A DNA stretch of 64,000 bases from Acanthochromis polyacanthus (Eukaryota; Chordata; Actinopteri; Pomacentridae). A program made the position numbers and the translations under genes. Below are positions 22,201-50,939 of this stretch, in pieces; the first letter of the stretch is position 1, and each line of letters begins with the position of its first letter. The notes below the pieces were generated by a model that worked only from the letters and a program-made list of their open reading frames with translations, made no database searches and was not told the origin of the DNA. The stretch is taken from the NCBI RefSeq assembly GCF_021347895.1, contig NC_067116.1, positions 41,187,677 through 41,251,676 on the forward strand, read 5' to 3'.

Positions 22201-22835
22201 AAGATCGGCCACCTGATCTCTCATTTTGACCATGAAAACTAACGGGAAAAAATCCTGAGCTGTGTTTGTATATATCTATGATAGACATGACGAGAGGGAT
22301 GACTTGCGGAGATGGAGCGGGATTTAGATGGTTAGATTTAAGCTGGAGCTGGTGCCGGTGGACCGACGGGATAGGCGGAGCTGGAGAACCGGACGTTTCC
22401 TGATGCGGATTTGAAGTTACGGAACTAAAGTAGCCGAAATATCAAAAGTTGTTGAGGACTCTTGAGATTTAGGACACGCCATCTCAACTTCTGCTTTGGT
22501 TTTAATGCTGCACTCCTGCTGTAAAGACGAATCGACCCACCGGATGTGACCACAGTCAGAAGGTAATGGAGGCTACCATAGACTGTATATAAAGATAATT
22601 TGCCAAATGCTGGTCCATGTTTATTGTGGTACACGCCATGTCACCAAACAGCACAGTGACTACTTGTAACCCTATAAATAGACCGACTGACTGACCACAA
22701 GTTTGTAGACACCTGTGATGCTAATTAGAGGACACACCTTGATTGAACATGTTCCTGTGGTCACATTATTTTCAGTCTTTTCTAGGGGTACCATCATTTT
22801 TGTCCACGTGTGTATATATGTGTATGTATATATAT
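19300..22835. other. lmx1a to selectin-cluster intergenic region
   Basis: Non-coding as far as I can see. 19,320-20,230 is unusually GC-rich with a GGT/GGA-rich low-complexity stretch near 19,600. From 21,290 on it is a patchwork of dispersed repeats: a GGGCTGGGCGATAAATCGAT element, a LINE-like 3' end, and short modules around 21,840-22,680. No selectin membrane or tail exon was found here, which matters for the chimeric gene to the right. Confidence 0.5.
21375..21690 (+). mobile_element. 5'-truncated non-LTR retrotransposon 3' end
   Basis: CACAAGTCCCGTTTGGTCACT, CTGTCCTCTTTAAAGTCTCTT, GAAAACCCACTTTTATTTTT and GCTGCTATACAAATAAAGTT, then an (ATT)n tail. This is the layout of the 3' end of an L2/CR1-like fish LINE or a SINE sharing its tail. 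A different LINE 3' end is at 43,160-43,735. Confidence 0.6.
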
Positions 22836-22839
22836 AAAT

Positions 22840-23962
22840 ATATAGTATGAATTCCTTGTTTTCTTGGTATTTGTCTTTACATATTGAAAATAAGTATCTC
22901 AATCTCCATTCCAAGTGTCAAAATGTCATAAACTTTTTTTTTAGTACTAACAAAACAAACATGGAGGATTGTGGTTTGTGGTTTAAATTGTAGTTTCAGC
23001 AGCAAAATTTTGCTAATTTATAATGTATGACAGAGTCTTGGAGGCAAGCACTGGGGCCCTGGATTTGTTTTCTGTTTTCTGATAATTCATCTGAAAAATG
23101 TCCATTTATAGGTAAGATTTCAAGGTTTATATCGCCATGTGTAATAGGTGGTTTGTCAGAATAAGTCATAGCAAATGAAAGGTCTGATTTTTACCTACAG
23201 TTTGACCCCAGCATCATTTTCTAGACATGACTCCATGATGAATGATATTCTTGTCTTCAGAAAAGACACAATATTTGCATGAAATGATCTCTTTTTTAAT
23301 CATTTTCAGCTTTAAGACCCCACAGGGTCTAATTTCATTTACAGTTTACGGTAAAAACACTGTATTGTGCATGCTGGGACGCTGGCCGTCCATTGGCCGC
23401 TGTGATCACAGCGTGTCAGGTTCTCTCCAATGAGGTCGAAGCCTTCATAACACCTGAACTCACAGGTGGAGTTGTAGCTGTGAGGTCCGACCGGGTGTCT
23501 GCAGATCATTGTTCCACCGCTGAACTTAGTGTGGCTCAGATCTGGACACTGTTCAACTGTGAGAGGCAGTAGAGAAATATTTTCCATCTAACTTCAGCAT
23601 CTGAAATAACAAATATTTTGACAGTGTGGGCTTCCTGTGGTTCTACCTTGACACAGAGGAAGTGGTTGGCTCCAATGTCCACTGGCTTGGCAGAACAGTT
23701 GGGACTCGCCGACCAAGCGGAAGCCGAGTTCACAGCTGAAAAGGCAGGAAGAGTTGAAACGATTGGACCCAAAGGGGTGGAAACAGAGTTGAGAGGCGTG
23801 AGCTGGATCTGCCAAAGGGTTGCATGCAATAGCTGCAAAGAAAACAAATGAACATCTTTTATTTAATTCATCAGAGAACGAGGTCATGGGTTCTAAAAAT
23901 ATTATTACCACAACAGGATAGACAACAAAAAACAATGAAAAAATGAGTGCGCTGTAAAACTG
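22840..23962. repeat. Segmental duplication A, copy of selp 31,130-32,255
   Basis: From the ATTCCTTGTTTTCTTG block through two sushi exons to AATGAGTGCGCTGT, this tracks 31,130-32,255 with scattered substitutions and small indels, same orientation. It supplies the 3' half of the chimeric selectin. It abuts duplication B at about 23,962-23,968. Confidence 0.9.
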
Positions 23963-24971
23963 AATTTCAAAAAGGACAATATTAGATCTCAAGTGACTTC
24001 AGAAATGTCCTCTTAACCCAGCAGAGCATCTTTTCTTACCGTGCTCACACTTGTCTCCATAAAATCCTTCAAAGCAGTCGCACTTGTGGCTGTTGATGGT
24101 CTCCACACAGTCTCCATGGAGACATGAGTCGCTCTGACAGGCAGCTGAGGCAAAAAGAAATACTTTCATGATTAATAATTAATTTTAAACTGTTAGTTTA
24201 ACTGTTTGCCAAGAAAACTAAGGCAGGTAAAATGACCCGCTCTATTATCTTAACTCCTAACGTCGACTCACCTTTGTAGCACAGAGCGCTCTTCAGTTTG
24301 CTGCACCTCTCGTCGTTCCACTTGCCCGCCTGCTGATCTCTCTTAATGTACATCTCCACACAGTCCTCACTCAGTCTGACAAGACTTGGTGCAGTCTTGC
24401 CATTGTTGGGTTCGCCCATCGCCCAGTTGGTTGCTTCTGCAGTCAGCGACTTGTTGGTCCCGACCCAGGTCCAGACGTCATTGATCTTGCGGATGCCGAT
24501 CCAGTAATAACTGGATTTCTTTGGCAGCCAGCTGTTGAGATGCTCGATCTCCTCCTGGTTCTGGATGGCCACCATGTCAGTGTAGTGCTCTTTGCACCAG
24601 GCTCGAGCATTCCTCCAGTTCATAGTGGTGTTTGAGAAGTAGTAAGACCAGCACTCCACGTTGGTCCACATGCACAGCACTGAGGACAGACAGCAGAGAC
24701 TCATATTAGATGATGGAGCAGCAAGGATGGATTCATAAACTTCTATCTGGTTCAAAAAGTTAGATTTGCACATTAGGTTTTACTTACTTGAGCAAAGAAA
24801 AGTCAAGCAGATCCATGAAGTGGAGCTTTTACATCCACGTGTCTGAAATAGTCCAAACTCCTGTAAAAATTAAATAAAAAGACTGATTAGAATAAATTCA
24901 TATTATCCATCACTAAACCTGAATTTGCACTGAAGAGAATTACATTCAAATTGATGCCTCACCATATTCAT
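23339..24971 (-). CDS. Chimeric selectin (sele head, selp sushi repeats), predicted secreted
   Basis: Exons on the minus strand: 24963-24971 (ATG), 24788-24860, 24272-24679, 24040-24144, 23647-23832, 23339-23556 (stop 23339-23341). They sum to 999 bases, 332 residues, phase-consistent. Order: signal peptide (core [13 protein letters not shown]), C-type lectin (WKxx-type start, [18 protein letters not shown]), EGF ([17 protein letters not shown]), sushi 1 and sushi 2, then IQCFYRKL and stop. The lectin keeps the selectin Ca/fucose residues (EPN, WND) and the Arg of YIKRD. Lectin and EGF copy sele (EGF exon identical by eye; lectin about 8 differences in 408 bases). Both sushi exons copy selp sushi 1-2. 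The last splice donor is lost by a one-base deletion, so the frame runs on to the stop. No membrane segment was found. Secretion is inference; a pseudogene is the alternative. Confidence 0.8.
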
Positions 24972-25640
24972 CAGTTTGTGTCTGATATCCTGCAGAAGAA
25001 GTAATTCTTCAGTCTCAGTCTGTGTGAGGAAGGAATGATTCTGACTTTTACATGCTGAGGGTCCTGCTTTTATATCTGACTGACCCGGTCCAAGTTTCCT
25101 GGAAATTCCATCACAGTTGGGCTTTTCACTAGAATTCCCCACTCCCACTCCAGTCTGGCCCCTCCCACAGGGGGGCGCAGGAACTTTTCCTTTCTTTTTT
25201 TTGTTCTTGATATGGGACCTAATACGACTTCTACCAGTCCTATCGCCATTATTGCATCAAACAGAAATTAATAAATGTATTTACTCAAATATTACATTTA
25301 AGAGCTATTCTGAGCAACTTTATTTGCTTGAGTTTTTCCATTTGGTGCTACTTTATTCTAGTGCTCCGTTACTTTTCATGGAAAATACTGCATACTCAAC
25401 TTTATACATGATGACTGCCTTGACTACTACAATTAGCTACTAATTTTAAGAGTTTTATCTTAGTTTAAGATGTGGAATTTCATCCAAGATATTTAATGCA
25501 AAATGTTTAATGAATATAGAAAATATGAAATTTTGTTTCAGACAAACCAAATCAGCAACATGTAAAGAAATTAACATTAAAATTCTGCTGAAGCATTCAA
25601 GTATCACTAATAATAATTCTTTTCTATTGTATTTGATGAA
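23968..25640. repeat. Segmental duplication B, copy of sele 46,982-48,640
   Basis: From AGGACAATATTAGATCTCAA onward it tracks 46,982-48,640 at roughly 98 percent by eye. It includes the EGF, lectin and signal exons, introns, 5' UTR, TATA box and upstream DNA. Similarity fades next to the TG/TA microsatellite at about 25,640, a likely breakpoint. Confidence 0.92.
25068..25140 (-). promoter_or_regulatory. Promoter of the chimeric selectin
   Basis: TATAAAA lies on the minus strand at 25068-25074, about 100 bp upstream of the start codon exon. kappaB-like elements follow upstream: TGGAATTTCC (minus strand, 25101-25110) and GGGGAATTCT (25131-25140). The latter has lost the final C present in sele (GGGGAATTCC, 48141-48150). 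Confidence 0.6.
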
Positions 25641-30200: not shown

Positions 30201-33200
30201 AGCACCTGTGCATGTAGGTGTGGGTTTGCTCCACCGTCCTGAGGCCAGACAGGCGAGCGTGTCGTCTCCGGTCAGGTAGAATCCATCCTGGCAGGTGAAG
30301 TTACACTGAGAGCCGAAGGAAAAAGGCTCCACGGCGCCCACACACGCCATGTTTCCAGAAACCGGAGGGAAAATGGCGGGGCACTTTTTTACTACGATGG
30401 AATGCAGATATCAATCACACAAAGGCCAAACAGAGTGCCGTTCAATCACTCCAGTTACACAAACACAGCCTGGACGTGAGGTGCAGGTTTGAATAATGAT
30501 GCTGACACAATTAACAGTCACAGTGTTATTTTTCTGCTGCAAACATGAATAGGTGTGAAGGAAACCGATCTGACGAGCAGTCCAGACAGGAAGTGACTCA
30601 GGCCAGTTATGCATTATTGAAAGGTGGCAGTGATTTGCTTAGCAAGGGTCATGTTTGGTCAAAGACGCATTCAATAGAAAATCGAACAAATCTGGAAAAA
30701 ATTCCCACCCTGACCGACTCAAATTCAGCTGTTTTTTTTTGTACAATAACCTCTGTATATTTAATGACGTTGTACAAAATTTTACTTTCATACTGTGAGT
30801 ATTTCCAGAGTTCCAGGCTCTTAAAGCACATAGGGGTGGGTCAAAGTTCGATGCTTTTTAATTGTATTATTTTTTCTCCATAAACTTAAAAAGTAGAGGA
30901 AAAACACACTTGGACTTTTCAGTGATGAAAAATATATTTTTCTTTGAGCCCTGCTGAAAATTGCAACTAGTTTTGCATCCATACCTAAGAAACTGGAAAT
31001 GATCAATCAATAACTTATGGAAAATGTGTGTTTGTTAACTTCTTCTTACTCCTTTTTGAATACATGGACCTATAGTCCAGAATTGTGGAATATTTCTTTT
31101 GCTGTATGATTTTGTTTTGTTTGTATATATATAATATTAATTCCTTGTTTTCTTGTGTTGCTTTACATATTCAAAATAAGTATCTTAATCTCTAGTCCAA
31201 GTGTCATAAACTTTTTTTTTAGTACTAAAAAAACCAAACTTGGATGATGAATATTATGGTTTATATCGTAGTTCTAGCAGCAAAATTTTACCAATTTATA
31301 ATGTATGACAGAGTCTTAGAGGCAAGCACTGGGGCCCCGGATTTGTTTTCTGTTTTCTGATAATTCATCTGAAAAAATGTCCATTTATAGGTAAGATTTC
31401 AAGGTTTTTATCGCCATGTGTAATAGGTGGTTTGTCAGAATAAGTCATAGCAAATGAAAGGTCTGATTTTTACCTACAGTTTGACCCCAGCATCATTTTC
31501 TAGACATGACTCCTGGCCATGATGAATGATATTCTTGTCTTCAGAAAAGACACAATATTTGCATGAAATGATCTCTTTTTTAATCATTTTCAGCTTTAAG
31601 ACCCCACTGGGTCTAATTTCATTTACAATTTACGGTAAAAACACTGTACTTGTGCATGCTGGGACGCTGGCCGTCCATTGGCCGCTGTGATCACAGCGTG
31701 TCAGGTTCTCTCCAATGAGGTCGAAGCCTTCATAACACCTGAACTCACAGGTGGAGTTGTAGCTGTGAGGTCCGACCGGGTGTCTGCAGATCATTGGTCC
31801 ACCGCTGAACTTAGTGTGGCTGAGATCTGGACACTGTTCAACTGTGAGAGGCAATAGAGAAATATTTTCCATCTAACTTCAACATCTGAAATAACAAATA
31901 TTTTGACAGTGTGGGCTTCCTGTGGTTCTACCTTGACACAGAGGAAGTGGTTGGCTCCAATGTCCACTGGCTTGGCAGAACAGTTGGGACTCGCCAACCA
32001 AGCGGAAGCCGAGTTCACAGCTGAAAAGGCAGGAAGAGTTGAAACGATCGGACCCAAAGGGGTGGAAACAGAGTTGAGAGGCGTGAGCTGGATCTGCCAA
32101 ATGGTTGCATGCAATAGCTGCAAAGAAAACAAATGAACATCTTTCATTTAATTCATCAGAGAACGAGGTCATAGCTATTTTCAAAGATTATGAAAATATT
32201 ATTACCACTCTACAACAGGATAGACAACAAAAAAACAATGAAAAATGAGTGCGCTGTCAAACAAAATAAAGAAATTCTGTAGATGACCTGCTGTAAGTCT
32301 GGCTGCAAGGATGTGAAAAACAGGCAAATTTCAGTGAAATAAACAGAATTTTTAGTAAAACTGTAATTTTTCTGTGATTTTCTGTAATTTAACAAAACAA
32401 GGAAAATCTAATCAATTGCCATTTTTAAATTGCAAAAATACATCACATTTCTTCTAAATAACAGCAAATATCTGCAAACTAATGATTTGTTTTTGTATTT
32501 TTTCTTTTTTCTTTGCAGATTTACAAATAGTAAAACTGTAATTTTGTGATAGAACATTGTAAAGGAATGAATAATTTCTCGTAAACATACTGATTTTTGA
32601 TGTACAGTTTTAGCCTCTTTGTGTGTTTAACACTTTTTTCTGTTATTTTTTAGTTAGAATTTTACAAAACAAGAAAAATATATAAAATAATAGCTTAAAA
32701 AGTTATTTCCCATGTGCCAGTCTTTACTGTACAAAATTTTTCTTTCAAGTAACAGCAATATCTGCTGATTTAAACATATAAAAACTGATAAATTTAAAGT
32801 CCAAACATAGTAGCAGAATGAATTTACAAGTTATAAAAATACAGTTTTTGATGTGGAAATTATTTACAGTTTAGGCCTGCATTTTTGGTTAATGTGTAAT
32901 TTTTTTCACTTTCTTTTTGTGATTTAAATAGATTTTATATTATTTAATAATAATGAAACTCGGAAAATTTGTAAAAAACAAAACATTAAATGGTTAAAAA
33001 AATTGCAGGAAAAATTATTTTCTTACACGTCTTATTTATTTTTTACAGCATAGCTCAGGAAAACCCTCTAAGCAGATCAAGTTATAGTTACTCAATGCTT
33101 CATCAGTGTAGCATCTTATAGTCAGTTTTCTAGTAATTCATCACTTTTTGGTCCTTTAATTGTTGTAGAAAAACTCATGATTCATTAATTACCAAGTTGT

Positions 33201-44713: not shown

Positions 44714-47700
44714 CTAGATGAGGCTGTCGATGCTGTTTCTGTAGCTCTGTGGTGGAATGTCGATGTCGGAGTTGCTGTGAGAAAAAACACGACATGATGA
44801 GCACTAAAGTTCAACTTTTTATAAAAAAAAACAAATGTGGGATTTAAGAGAGTTGAATGCTTATCTCACCTGTTCAGCTCAAACTTTGTTGCTTTGCGCT
44901 TCAGTCGCTTCAAGATCCACATAGCGAGAGAAAGACCAGACAGTAAAGCAGCTCCTCCTGCAGTCACACCAGTGGTGATCGCAGCGACTTTAGACGAAGA
45001 AGCTGCGAGAACAACGTGAAAGGTGAGTATTTTGACCTTTAAAACTCAAATGTTGTAGTTTAATCTGTTGTATTTAAATGTCTCATTAGAATTGTTTGCT
45101 TGTTTTACCTTGACAGGTGGGGTTCTGTCCAGTCCAGTTGCCGTGACGATCACAGGTGAGCAGCTCGTGTCCGTCTAGTGTGAAATCTTGATCGCATGTG
45201 AAGGAACACTGAGAGTTGAAAACTGGTTCATTGGTGGAACAGTTGATGCGACCGTTTTCAGGAGCTTCAAGGAGTGAGCACCTCACAGCTGTTAAAGAAG
45301 AAAGAAGACATTTTATCAGTCAAGATATTATTTTAGTGACATTAAACCACTTCAGAGCAGCATAAATAGTCCAGGTTCTTGTGTTTACCTGTGCAGGTCG
45401 GTGCTCTGGAGGTCCACTTGCCCGGATGTGCACACTCCACGCTGAGTTCACCCTGCAGCTCGTGGCCTTCATCACAGCTAAAGGTGCAGACTGTACCGAG
45501 TGGATGTGGAGTCCCAGGAGAAACAGGGTAAGACAGAGATGGGCTGCAGCTGATTTGGCCTCTTGTTGGAGTCTCTGGAGCTGGACATGTGATTGCTGCA
45601 AAAGAAAATGAAGAAGAACATGAATGAAACATCACGGCGGAGTGAAAAATGTGCAGAGTGAGGATAAAGTGTTGCACATTGAGCTGGTGTGAGAACAGGC
45701 TTCCATACCTTTGCAGGTTGGTACGGCTTCAATCCACCGTCCATCCTCTGAACACTGAGTCATCTGAGCTCCCTGCAGTTCAAATCCTGGTTCACAGCTG
45801 AAGCTGCAGGTGGAGTTTGGCCTCAGGTCGGACAAAGGTTCGCTGCACCGAGCGATGAGGTGAGCGTCGAACTCTGGACTCTGGCAAGTGATGGCTAAAA
45901 CAGGAAAAAGATATATGTTTTAACTTGTCAGAAAACATGAAGAATCTTTTTAATTGTGTAGAAGATGGTTGGATAATTACCTTCACAGCGAGGCACCTGC
46001 TGGCTCCACTCAGCCGCTGATGTGCACGTTGCACTGCTCGGTCCCACCAGCTGATATCCGGGTTCACAGGTAAAGCTGCAGGTGTTTCCGTAGCTGAACT
46101 TCGTTTCTGTATCATCTCCACATCTGATGACGCCGTTCTCCAGATAATTGAGCTCTGGGCAACGAACAACTGCAGAAAAGAAGTTTTTTGTTAAATCACT
46201 GTCATCAAATTTTACCATTTTTTGCTAAAACAATCCTGAACGGTCCTTTTAATCTGCAGAAACTGATCAGTTCGATTTTGTGTGTGTTTTATTTTGCTGG
46301 AACCAGCCATCTTTGAAGCTCAGATTTCATCCAAATGCAGTCATTTTTAAGTAATCAGTGTTAGTATTAAGTCTGGACTAAACTATTGAACTTCTCTGTA
46401 GCTTTCCCCGTAATTTTAGTTTATTTCTTTTCAATTATATTGCACACTTTAGCTCTTAAAACATAAAACATGTAGGCGTACCTGCACAACGAGGTTGCGA
46501 GGCGTTCCAACGACCGGATGCTTCACATTGCAGAGTGTTGGACGTGGAACCAGCCAGTTCATAACCTTCATCACAGGCAAAGACACAGGTGGACCTAAAG
46601 CTGGAGGAGCCCAGAGGATCGGAGCAATTCATGGATCCACTCTCAGGTTGAAGCAGCTTCTCGCACTGAATCACTGCAGACAACAGGAAGAATCACATTA
46701 GACCACATCCCAACACCGTCATCATAAAGTTTGAAGAACGTTAAAGTGTTCATCATTTATTGATTCAACTCACATTCACACGTCGGAGGCTGCTCGGACC
46801 ATGTTTTAGAGGCAGTGCACCTCAAAGGGTTTGGCATGCTCAGCTGGTATCCTTCCTCACAGGAATACTGGCACGAGGAGTCGTAGGAGAAGTTTCCATA
46901 CTTATGGGTGCAGCTGACATTTCCTTTGTCTGGGACGGTTATCTCGTCTTTGTCGCAGTGAACAACTACCAAGAAGAAAAACAGGACAATATTAGATCTC
47001 AAGTGACTTCAGAAATGTCCTCTTAACCCAGCAGAACATCTTTTCTTACCGTGCTCACACTTGTCTCCATAAAATCCTTCAAAGCAGTCGCACTTGTGGC
47101 TGTTGATGGTCTCCACACAGTCTCCATGGAGACATGAGTCGCTCTGACAGGCAGCTGAGGCAGAAAGAAATCCTTTCATGATTAATAATTAATTTTAAAC
47201 TGTTAGTTTAACTCTTTGCCAAGAAAACTAAGGCAGGTAAAATGACTCGCTCTATTATCTTAACTCCTAACGTCGACTCACCTGTGTAACACAGAGCGGT
47301 CTTCAGTTTGCTGCACCTCTCGTCGTTCCACTTGCCCGCCTGCTGATCTCTCTTAATGTACATCTCCACACAGTCCTCACTCAGTCTGGCAAGACTTGGC
47401 CCAGTCTTGCCATTGTTGGGTTCGCCCATCGCCCAGTTGGTTGCTTCTGCAGTCAGCGACTTGTTGGTCCCGACCCAGGTCCAGACGTCGTTGATCTTGC
47501 GGATGCCGATCCAGTAATAACCGGATTTCTTTGGCAGCCAGCTGTTGAGATGCTCGATCTCCTCCTGGTTCTGGATGGCCACCATGTCAGTGTAGTGCTC
47601 TTTGCACCAGGCTCGAGCATTCCTCCAGTTCATAGTGGTGTTTGAGAAGTAGTAAGACCAGCACTCCACGTTGGTCCACATGCACAGCACTGAGGACAGA

Positions 47701-47981
47701 CAGCAGAGACTCATATTAGATGATGGAGCAGCAAGGATGGATTCATAAACTTCTATCTGGTTCAAAAAGTTAGATTTGCACATTAGGTTTTACTTACTTG
47801 AGCAAAGAAAAGTCAAGCAGATCCATGAAGTGGAGCTTTTACATCCACGTGTCTGAAATAGTCCAAACTCCTGTAAAAATTAAATAAAAAGACTGATTAG
47901 AATAAATTCATATTATCCATCACTAAACCTGAATTTGCACTGAAGAGAATTACATTCAAATTGATGCCTCACCATATTCAT
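44714..47981 (-). CDS. sele: E-selectin type adhesion receptor with 6 sushi repeats
   Basis: Minus-strand exons: 47973-47981 (ATG), 47798-47870, 47282-47689 lectin, 47050-47154 EGF; sushi 1-6 at 46774-46965, 46482-46673, 45981-46169, 45709-45894, 45389-45595, 45109-45288; membrane 44870-45002; tail 44714-44774 (TAG). They sum to 1,935 bases, 644 residues, phase-consistent. E-selectin is the inducible endothelial receptor for sialyl-Lewis-type glycans on leukocytes. The lectin has [23 protein letters not shown] and WNDERC, so Ca ligands and the sugar-contacting Tyr/Arg are kept, with about seven extra residues after EPNN. Sushi 5 has a Pro-rich insertion ([14 protein letters not shown]). Membrane core: [18 protein letters not shown]. 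The tail ends in [10 protein letters not shown]. Six sushi repeats match human SELE, as do its place next to sell and its divergent neighbour firrm, with phpt1 intervening. Confidence 0.92.
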
Positions 47982-48077
47982 CAGTTTGTGTCTGATATCC
48001 TGCAGAAGAAGTAATTCTTCAGTCTCAGTCTGTGCGAGGAAGGAATGATTCTGACTTTTACATGCTGAGGGTCCTGC

Positions 48078-48150
48078 TTTTATATCTGACTGACCCGGTC
48101 CAAGTTTCCTGGAAATTCCATCACAGTTGGGCTTTTCGCTGGAATTCCCC
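48078..48150 (-). promoter_or_regulatory. sele promoter: TATA box and kappaB-like sites
   Basis: Minus strand: TATAAAA at 48078-48084, TGGAATTTCC at 48111-48120 (one base off GGGAATTTCC) and GGGGAATTCC at 48141-48150, which fits the NF-kappaB consensus GGGRNNYYCC. With transcription starting about 30 bp past the TATA box, the sites lie near -60 and -95. Clustered kappaB sites close to a TATA box are the known design of the cytokine-inducible mammalian SELE promoter; inducibility here is inference. Confidence 0.7.
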
Positions 48151-50939
48151 ACTTCCACTCCAGTCTGGCCCCTCCCACAGGGGGGCGCAGGAACTTTTCC
48201 TTTCTTTTTTTTTGTTCTTGATATGGGACCTAATACGACTTCTACCAGTCCTATCACCATTATTGCATCAAACAGAAATTAATAAATGTATTTACTCAAA
48301 TATTACATTTAAGAGCTATTCTGAGCAACTTTATTTGCTTGAGTTTTTCCATTTGGTGCTACTTTATTCTAGTGCTCCGTTACTTTTCATGGAAAATACT
48401 GCATACTCAACTTTATACATGATGACTACCTTGACTACTACAGCTAGCTACTAATTATAAGATTTCTTTCTTAGTTTAAGATGTGGAATTTCATCCAAAA
48501 TGTTTCATGCAAAATATTTAATGAATATAGAAAATATATAAGATATTGTTTTAGACAACCCAAATCAGCAACGTGTAAAGAAATTAACATTAAAATTCTG
48601 CTGAAGCATTCAAGTTTCATTAATATTAATAAAGTATATTCTACTCGATAAATACGTTTATTTTTGAAAGTCATATATTATATCTGTACATATATACACA
48701 CTCATTTAGCTAAAACTTTTGCAGTTTTGCAACAAATCTTACATTTTATAAGTTATAATGTTCTTGATTTTTCAAAACTGATTTGAGAAAGGTGCTGATT
48801 TAAACTGAATGGTTATTTTGGAAGATGTTGCCTGTGAAGTTGTTTGACTTAAACTGACAGAGGTTTCTATTATTTTTTCCACTCTATAAACATCAGTGAG
48901 GGTCACATAAATTATTCCGTTCAGCAGCAGCAGATAGTGCAGCCTCCAAAGTAAACCAACGGCTCCGGAAACAGTTTTAAAAATGTAATATTATAGCTTT
49001 TATGATGGATTTATTGCAGGACTCGTGTTGGACTGTTTTAGTTGCAACAATCTGTGTATACATGCATGGAAATACATGTATTTTTCAGCTAAATGTAGTT
49101 AATCTTGTGTGTATTTCTACACCTTAGTGTGCATTTCTTCTAAAGGGTCTCACATAGTTGCATTTGTGTTTTTACACCGCTAATGCTCTGATAGTGGACA
49201 AACTTCTGCAAAACCTGGTGAATGATGTTGCAAATCCAAAACAAACTTCATTATATAAGTAACTAGAATTTTCCTGGTAACCACATCGGCACAAAACACA
49301 CATTCAGATGCACGTATGAAGTAAAAAAAAAAAAAAAAACACAGGAAAATTAGTGAAATCCTGTGAGCTGATAAGACACACAGATGTTAGGGTGCCACTG
49401 ATTCTTAATCGGATTTGGACTTTTTTGGTGATTTTCCCACTAATTAGAGCAAACAGTCTTATCTTTGGCAGCTTCTTTATGTCTGCACTTGAGTTATGAG
49501 TAATGTGCAGCAGCTGGAGTCTAAACTTCATGAGTCTGTGCCGTGATTCATCCATATTGGTGGTAGTACAAAATGTGCCAAAGGACAATGCATAGACTGG
49601 AACATGGTCGAAAAAAATGAATTGACATGTCCTGTCAAAGGATGTGTTCATCAAAGGAAAGATGGAGAAGACAAAAGCATGCATTGGCCGCTAACAAACA
49701 CCTTTTAGTGAGGGTCTGGGGACGGGAAATGTGTGATGTGGGAGCGGAGGCGCCTGCTGCCTGTCTGACTTTCTAGAAGTGACAGTTCACATCCTTCCTC
49801 TCTGATCCGAAGCACCGGGTAGTAGCAGACACCCTGAATCTCCACCTCTTCCCCAGAAGAGTAATATAAACTCTCTAATTAACTACTACAATAGATTCTA
49901 CAATACAATAGATTCCCCCTGGGGTCACTCTTACTTTGAGATTCATAAGAACATCAAAAGCTGGTGCTTATTTTGCATGTTTTCACTTTATTCAGGTAAT
50001 ATTTTACCCTCTGCTATGACCACCCAGATCCCAAATGTCCTTTTTTCCCCTTTTTCCTCAAGAAAGACAGCACGCTCTTAGGCGCAGCAGTCAGAGCTGC
50101 TATTGGCAGGGCAGCTCGAATGAAATTTAATTGTATATGAAAGTGTGCAATGACAAATAAAGTGATCTGTAATAGTACTGCAACTGTGAGGTTACTGTCA
50201 CTTTAACAGACCTGTGAAGGATTTTGTTTTCAGCGCAAAAGGCTGCATATCTAATCACAACAGAAAGTCAAGGCATTTACTGTAACTGCCCTGTTTCATT
50301 TCTAACACAAGTGCATGTGACTCACAAACTTTCTGTTTGACCTCAGACTAAAGCTGCAGTATGATTTACGGATGTTTATCCAAGCAGTGACCATTTGCCA
50401 AATACGGATTGTTTCTTGTTAAACTCCTATTGCTTTCTGTCTCCTGCAGCTTTTTATCCGTGTTTAACAGTCTAGAATAGATGGCCATTGTTACAAACAG
50501 TTTAGAAGACGCTACAATATCTGGGGGATATCAGTATTTTCAGTACCAGTAGTTTTTACACATGGACACGTGCTATAATAATGTTTTTCCACATGTAGAA
50601 TAAACCGGTGCAATATTTTTATTTTCTTCATTCTCAGCAATATGTAGATTTTCCAGATAAATAAGAATCTGCACAATATCAACATTACTTGTGCAGATTT
50701 CTTTGTTATTTGTATTCTTTTTTTTCTTTTTTTACTCAGGTCCACTACATTTTTGCACAGTCCACTGTAATGCTGCCACACTTCACACTTTTCAGGAGAT
50801 GTAGACTATGGTAAAAGGAAGAGCTGATTTAATTTTGGTGGCAATCCGGAAAGGGTCCTGGATTCTGTTTTTTTAGTATGTGGTCCAAAATATGACAAAA
50901 ACATCATAGGTTAGTATGTCGTCCAACAAATTGGAGCAA

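Follow-up and report, generated by a model that had tools for sequence, protein, structure and literature searches.

A fourth selectin-derived gene, assembled from copied parts of SELE and SELP and predicted to encode a soluble protein, lies within the SELE-SELL-SELP cluster of the spiny chromis, Acanthochromis polyacanthus, a coral-reef damselfish (Pomacentridae). We refer to this gene as the chimera, and to the whole 64-kb stretch of DNA that was analysed, which covers positions 41,187,677-41,251,676 of one contig in an assembly of 957 Mb and 81 contigs, as the window. As readings of the sequence, the anatomy of the chimera and the prediction that its product is soluble are solid, and we give an even chance to the fuller interpretation that it is a real, lineage-restricted selectin derivative that would be expressed and secreted as a four-domain lectin.

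Sequence comparison and exon models place SELE, SELL, SELP, and the chimera in this order on the minus strand of the window:

47,981-44,714, minus strand: coding part of the SELE-like gene (644 aa)
about 40.7-35.7 kb, minus strand: SELL-like gene, modelled in part
34,018-27,238, minus strand: SELP-like gene (929 aa)
24,971-23,339, minus strand: coding part of the chimera, the fourth selectin-derived gene (332 aa)
at about 17,051: LMX1A-like homeobox exon

A tandem of SELE, SELL, and SELP is likewise described for Fugu (PMC514892). Within the spiny chromis cluster, positions 39,158-38,705 of the SELL-like gene align with 32,230-31,553 of the SELP-like gene on either side of SELP 32,112-31,879, a stretch that is itself missing from the SELL-like gene and contains almost the entire first CCP exon; the SELL-like gene thus seems to have lost CCP1 through a deletion of about 230 bases.

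BLASTN comparison resolves the chimera into two copied blocks that meet inside an intron:

23,969-25,617, minus strand: SELE-derived block containing the 5' flank, the promoter, and the signal-peptide, lectin, and EGF exons (parent 46,979-48,630)
23,961-23,968, minus strand: junction, eight bases outside both BLAST alignments, in the EGF-CCP1 intron
22,835-23,960, minus strand: SELP-derived block (parent 31,124-32,262) with the last part of the EGF-CCP intron, two CCP exons, and some 500 bases of the intron that follows them
23,021-23,234, minus strand: copy of a dispersed repeat inside the SELP-derived block

Identity to the parent is 97.5% over 1,652 columns in the SELE-derived block and 93% over 1,152 columns in the SELP-derived block (E = 0 in both cases), which bears out the positions that a first-pass annotation of this DNA had proposed for two blocks duplicated from sele and selp. 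When a 2,851-base query covering the chimera was compared with the assembly and 40 of the 371 candidates were scored, the only full-length match was at the query's own locus, and the other long matches were the two parents and one SELL-like exon. These four are among 44 assembly matches, 39 of which fall in the dispersed repeat (query 2417-2660; about 22,991-23,234 in the window) and one at query 2747-2840. No further copy of the chimera was found among the scored candidates from the 957-Mb assembly, and this search ruled out that the chimera is a haplotig or a repeat copy from elsewhere. The dispersed repeat is about 200 bases long, is also found in the SELP intron, and has many copies in the assembly at 70-87% identity.

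We consider it highly improbable that the chimera is an assembly artefact, either a false join or a false duplication. The window contains 0 Ns, the chimera differs from its parents by 39 and 54 substitutions in the two blocks, and no second copy occurs among the candidates scored from the 81 contigs. Furthermore, residues S84, P204, and N222 of the chimera are clownfish residues that are absent from the parents in this genome, which would be unlikely for a duplicated haplotype, and H and D, not the P and N of the chimera, stand at the corresponding sites in a second A. polyacanthus SELP record (P0246). The gene is already annotated under a generic name, as the NCBI protein set holds a protein record, "L-selectin-like [Acanthochromis polyacanthus]," that is identical to our predicted protein at 332/332 residues; with one assembly searched, this record may derive from the same assembly.

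The coding sequence of the chimera is distributed over six exons:

24,971-24,963, minus strand: exon 1, coding part with the start codon (9 bases)
24,860-24,788, minus strand: exon 2, signal peptide (73 bases)
24,679-24,272, minus strand: exon 3, C-type lectin domain (408 bases; Lectin_C, 80.8 bits)
24,144-24,040, minus strand: exon 4, EGF domain (105 bases; EGF, 21.9 bits against a cut-off of 21.5)
23,832-23,647, minus strand: exon 5, first CCP domain, of SELP origin (186 bases; Sushi, two stretches, 61.6 bits for the CCPs)
23,556-23,339, minus strand: exon 6, second CCP domain, of SELP origin, with the read-through tail TIQCFYRKL and the stop (218 coding bases)

Joined, these exons give 999 bases with phases 0,1,1,1,1 and a single terminal stop, so that the open, phase-consistent model proposed earlier was reproduced exactly. 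The splice sites of the five remaining introns are intact, and the domains contain neither a stop nor a frameshift. Because the block junction is intronic and the exon phases agree, splicing of the EGF exon to the first CCP exon is expected.

All of the lectin, EGF, and CCP domains of the predicted protein score above their Pfam cut-offs, the EGF domain barely so. As is typical of selectins, a C-type lectin domain with an EPN-type calcium/ligand site is followed by a single EGF domain (residues 166-196) and by CCP repeats, of which selectins have at least two and the chimera has two, recognised as two Sushi stretches. Among solved structures, the nearest chain is that of human E-selectin 4c16 (E = 2.8e-87, 49% identity over 288 columns), and a fold comparison ranks the same structure first (E = 7.5e-32, rmsd 6.2). 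In the alignment with this chain Y48, E80, N82, N83, E88, E92, Y94, R97, N105, D106, and E107 are identical, and we take these eleven positions to be the calcium- and sialyl-Lewis-x-binding site residues of E-selectin. The AlphaFold model of the chimera is fair, with a mean pLDDT of 75.7 (the other four models reach 64.8-65.8; 20 sequences). In ten-residue blocks, pLDDT is 44-86 in the lectin part, 89-97 for residues 191-320, and 78 for residues 321-330, and it falls to 42 for the last two residues. The high values across the EGF-CCP seam and the CCPs suggest that the seam is foldable.

Selectins are type I membrane adhesion receptors that mediate cell rolling through calcium-dependent binding of sialyl-Lewis-x-type glycans. 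The feature of membrane selectins that the chimera lacks is the membrane segment with its cytoplasmic tail, and hydropathy, downstream homology, and a deleted splice donor agree on this point. The SELP-derived copy extends some 500 bases into the intron that follows the second CCP exon and stops before any membrane exon, and two features near its end bear on how the message would terminate:

23,364/23,365, minus strand: one-base deletion abolishing a splice donor, TGCACAA/GTACAG in SELP against TGCACAATACAG in the chimera
23,295-23,300, minus strand: ATTAAA polyadenylation-type hexamer downstream of the stop

Relative to the SELP donor, one G is missing from TGCACAATACAG. The SELP donor is itself weak (5.8 on a matrix built from 26 donors of both parents). 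We regard the donor as the older state because a donor occupies the same position in the SELL-like exon and because the clownfish SELP protein continues past it into further CCPs. With the donor deleted, the second CCP exon is expected to run on to the stop, and the hexamer beyond it was inherited, since the SELP intron has the same hexamer. In SELP itself, the weak donor CAA/GTACAG (region 31,650-31,579) is followed by an early in-frame stop, giving the tail TSTVFLP, and by the ATTAAA hexamer, so that a short soluble SELP isoform could arise by ending in that intron. A strong donor-like sequence, TAG/GTAAAA, lies at 23,194, 145 bases beyond the stop of the chimera; splicing there would leave the protein unchanged but could make the message a target of decay.

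Across the 332-aa protein the hydropathy maximum over 19 residues is 1.35 and lies in the signal peptide, whereas the C-terminal membrane segments give values of 1.71 in SELE and 2.84 in SELP. After the signal peptide, the hydropathy profile shows no conspicuous hydrophobic segment. The claim that no membrane exon is present out to lmx1a also held: tblastn with the clownfish SELE and SELP proteins returned chance matches only between window positions 1 and 23,350 (best E = 2.7). An additional membrane exon between the window start and 23,350 was rejected on this search, which covers exons of the SELE and SELP types. A fourth, chimeric selectin gene with a soluble product is therefore upheld as a prediction from sequence, and the deleted splice donor strengthens it. 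Being a selectin by descent and domain order that has no anchor, the chimera is best called a putative selectin-derived secreted lectin.

The tail produced by the read-through has a feature of its own. If the mature protein is taken to start at W38, which corresponds to residue 1 of the human chain, it has 23 cysteines, and the odd, unpaired one is C327 in the tail TIQCFYRKL. Read through as it stands, the second CCP exon of SELP would end in TSTVFLP, without a cysteine; it is the one-base deletion that set the reading frame of the tail with C327. Given the lower pLDDT of residues 321-332, the direction in which C327 points in the model is provisional. Monomeric soluble E-selectin is described as forming only monomeric bonds with dimeric PSGL-1, and a dimeric Ig fusion as forming dimeric bonds (PMC3581448). 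From this behaviour we infer that a disulfide in the tail would matter. If C327 linked two molecules, firmer binding of dimeric ligands would be predicted. Dimeric soluble P-selectin has reportedly been the subject of one study in mice.

Divergence between the chimera and its parents is distributed unevenly along both blocks. In the cores it is about 1.3%, at non-coding sites (12/866 in the SELE block and 5/423 in the SELP block) and at coding sites (8/595 and 6/404, respectively) alike, whereas three block edges differ at 19/188 (10.1%), 33/215 (15.3%), and 10/73 (13.7%) of positions. The best change points, 25,416 and 23,014, beat 2,000 of 2,000 permutations, and unbroken identity extends over as many as 512 and 194 bases, more than expected by chance (0 of 5,000 and P = 0.0002, respectively). 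Selection was rejected as the cause of the low core divergence because the non-coding core is as similar as the coding core. A core far closer to the parents than its flanks, in coding and non-coding sequence alike, is the pattern expected of gene conversion, and conversion of the chimera with SELE and SELP appears to be the likeliest cause. It follows that the chimera may be older than 1.3% suggests, and the last exchange would postdate the split from clownfish, since the core shares many parental residues that clownfish lacks. The earlier description of the locus as two adjoining duplications accordingly holds for its anatomy but not for a simple history, as the cores of both blocks appear to have been homogenised with the parental genes.

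The same observations raise the question of whether the chimera is what is left of an older, larger fourth selectin, or of an older chimera, whose core was overwritten by recent conversion with SELE and SELP. The contrast between the edges and a core that is equally close to the parents at coding and non-coding sites, the change points, and the identical runs all speak for such a remnant, but the edges are short, the outer ones adjoin simple repeats, change point 23,014 adjoins the end of the dispersed repeat (about 23,021-23,234), and nothing else downstream points to a larger gene. We hold an older remnant to be less likely than not, though it would be compatible with the interpretation of the chimera as a real selectin derivative.

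Coding differences between the chimera and its parents bear on whether the gene is functional. There are 8 non-synonymous and 5 synonymous differences, giving a dN/dS of 0.40 that does not depart significantly from neutrality (P = 0.096). Bases that set the chimera apart from its parents lie at 24,391, 24,390, 24,379, 24,289, 24,274, 23,817, and 23,764, in addition to the deletion at 23,364/23,365. When 13 random substitutions were simulated, the frame remained open in 54% of cases and acquired a stop in 46%. An open frame as proof of function was rejected on this stop risk of 0.46, and, the frame being young, its openness is weak evidence. The designation of the chimera as a dedicated gene in the first-pass annotation is, on the same simulation and the same P value for a shortage of non-synonymous changes, not established.

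With clownfish as the outgroup for residue polarity, A124, V128, S158, and K163 appear to be new in the lectin domain of the chimera, V128 with weak polarity because it lies beside an alignment gap; S158 and K163 are T in all four other sequences compared. The chimera would thus have gained about four new lectin residues since it and SELE split, including two in the loop that follows EPNN, against one in SELE. At the lectin position S84 the chimera has the older state and SELE here has G, with a polarity that is uncertain because Stegastes also has G. In the CCPs, P204, N222, and T276 match clownfish SELP, and the H and D that SELP carries at the sites of P204 and N222, also present in P0246, are new in SELP. 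Since the CCP differences match clownfish SELP, the CCPs of the chimera contain no new-looking residue. At the T276 site (region 31,814-31,805), T is shared by P0246, clownfish, and the chimera, but SELP in this assembly carries P, which may reflect polymorphism, a change private to this sequence, or an exchange with the chimera.

The core promoter was copied from SELE together with the exons:

25,067-25,140, minus strand: core promoter copied from SELE
25,131-25,140, minus strand: kappa-B-type site GGGGAATTCT, one base changed from GGGGAATTCC in SELE
25,101-25,110, minus strand: kappa-B-like site TGGAATTTCC, unchanged relative to SELE
25,067-25,076, minus strand: TATA-like box, unchanged relative to SELE

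Matches to the full kappa-B consensus are no more frequent in the window than expected (3 found vs. 4.28 expected), and the kappa-B sites were rejected as stand-alone evidence on this count. The altered site is of interest because of its place, 54 bases upstream of the TATA-like box, and because mammalian SELE is under kappa-B control. The one-base change leads to the prediction that the chimera would respond more weakly to NF-kappa-B than SELE.

Taken together, these data give a probability somewhat short of even that the chimera is a functionless by-product, that is, a chance open frame, perhaps transcribed at a low level and turning into a pseudogene, in which conversion or youth keeps the likeness to the parents. 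The survival of the frame in 54% of simulations, the lack of significant constraint, the larger number of new lectin residues in the chimera than in SELE, the altered kappa-B-type site, the lost splice donor, and the absence of another named pomacentrid from the best 120 of 574 relatives are as such a by-product would have them. A gene of this kind is harder to reconcile with domains free of stops and frameshifts, with the intact splice sites of the five remaining introns, with the retention of all eleven ligand-site residues, and with CCPs that differ from SELP only toward clownfish SELP.

Among the best 120 of 574 relatives of the chimera protein (lengths 182-581), no other pomacentrid is named, with 5 of the 120 rows lacking a species; the next-best relative scores 569 bits compared with 809 for the chimera protein, and the 90% cluster of the protein has one member. 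Separate searches recovered SELE of clownfish (92%) and Stegastes (80%) as well as clownfish SELP. These searches of annotated proteins fit an origin, or at least a survival, of the chimera that would be restricted to Acanthochromis. No paper noting the chimeric nature of the gene was found among the titles and abstract openings of the open-licence literature.

If the chimera is a real selectin derivative, its history and action may be pictured as follows. A copy of part of SELE supplied the promoter and the signal-peptide, lectin, and EGF exons, and a copy of part of SELP the two CCP exons; the copies meet inside an intron, with compatible phases that should let the EGF exon splice to the CCP exon, and the SELP copy falls short of every membrane exon. 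A later one-base deletion removed the last CCP donor, with an expected run-on to the stop and a possible polyadenylation site, and gene conversion with SELE and SELP probably keeps the core parent-like. The gene would be transcribed much like SELE, in inflamed endothelium, and the protein would be secreted and act as a free selectin that competes with membrane selectins for ligands of the sialyl-Lewis-x type. A role as a decoy or humoral lectin is what we infer from this picture. Its most specific form, a humoral selectin that is driven by inflammation, secreted as a C327-linked dimer, and able to block leukocyte rolling or to signal through dimeric ligands, seems to us a long shot.

Soluble selectins are known to arise from membrane receptors, by shedding or splicing, and have been studied as markers and modulators of inflammation. 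If the proposed reading is true, a separate gene for a soluble selectin would be a natural experiment on selection for free selectin. The locus also offers a compact example of a chimeric gene, in which parents, junction, anchor loss, and splice-site deletion are legible in about 26 kb and conversion ties the gene to both parents. To the first observation of the gene the present analysis adds the deleted donor of the last exon, the tail with an unpaired cysteine, the uneven divergence, the altered kappa-B-type site, the eleven kept site residues, and the single copy among the scored candidates.

Compared with its parents, the chimera shares the promoter, signal peptide, lectin, and EGF parts with SELE (97.5% DNA identity over the block); however, SELE continues with six CCPs and ends in a membrane segment and a cytoplasmic tail, whereas the chimera has two CCPs of the SELP type and no anchor. 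With SELP it shares two CCP exons (93% over the block), but SELP has its own lectin and EGF domains, eleven CCPs in our model, and a membrane segment, and it keeps the second CCP donor that is deleted in the chimera. Short fish selectins from Lucifuga dentata (P0064, 339 aa), Plectropomus leopardus (P0087, 303 aa), and Monopterus albus (P0092, 308 aa) also have the order lectin-EGF-CCP-CCP and end early. Their CCPs are 68-76% identical to those of SELE and 46% identical to those of SELP, from which the CCPs of the chimera come, and they were rejected as the same kind of chimera because their CCPs are SELE's own. The source of P0087 is a contig of 1,730 bases, and P0092 breaks off within CCP2, so that both may be partial models. 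In P0064 and P0087 only a few residues follow CCP2, as though translation continued into the adjoining intron; these two may be partial models or truncated isoforms. The recombinant human E-selectin 4c16 has the same four domains as the chimera and is soluble, with a glycomimetic bound; it is, however, a laboratory construct in which the SCRs are those of E-selectin itself and the extra tail is absent. Mammalian soluble P-selectin, as described in PMC7355470, is free of an anchor like the predicted product of the chimera, and for P-selectin this source is consistent with the earlier statement that shedding and splicing are the only routes to soluble selectins in mammals. Mammalian soluble P-selectin is derived from a membrane gene by splicing or cleavage (PMC7355470), whereas the chimera is a separate locus without membrane exons.
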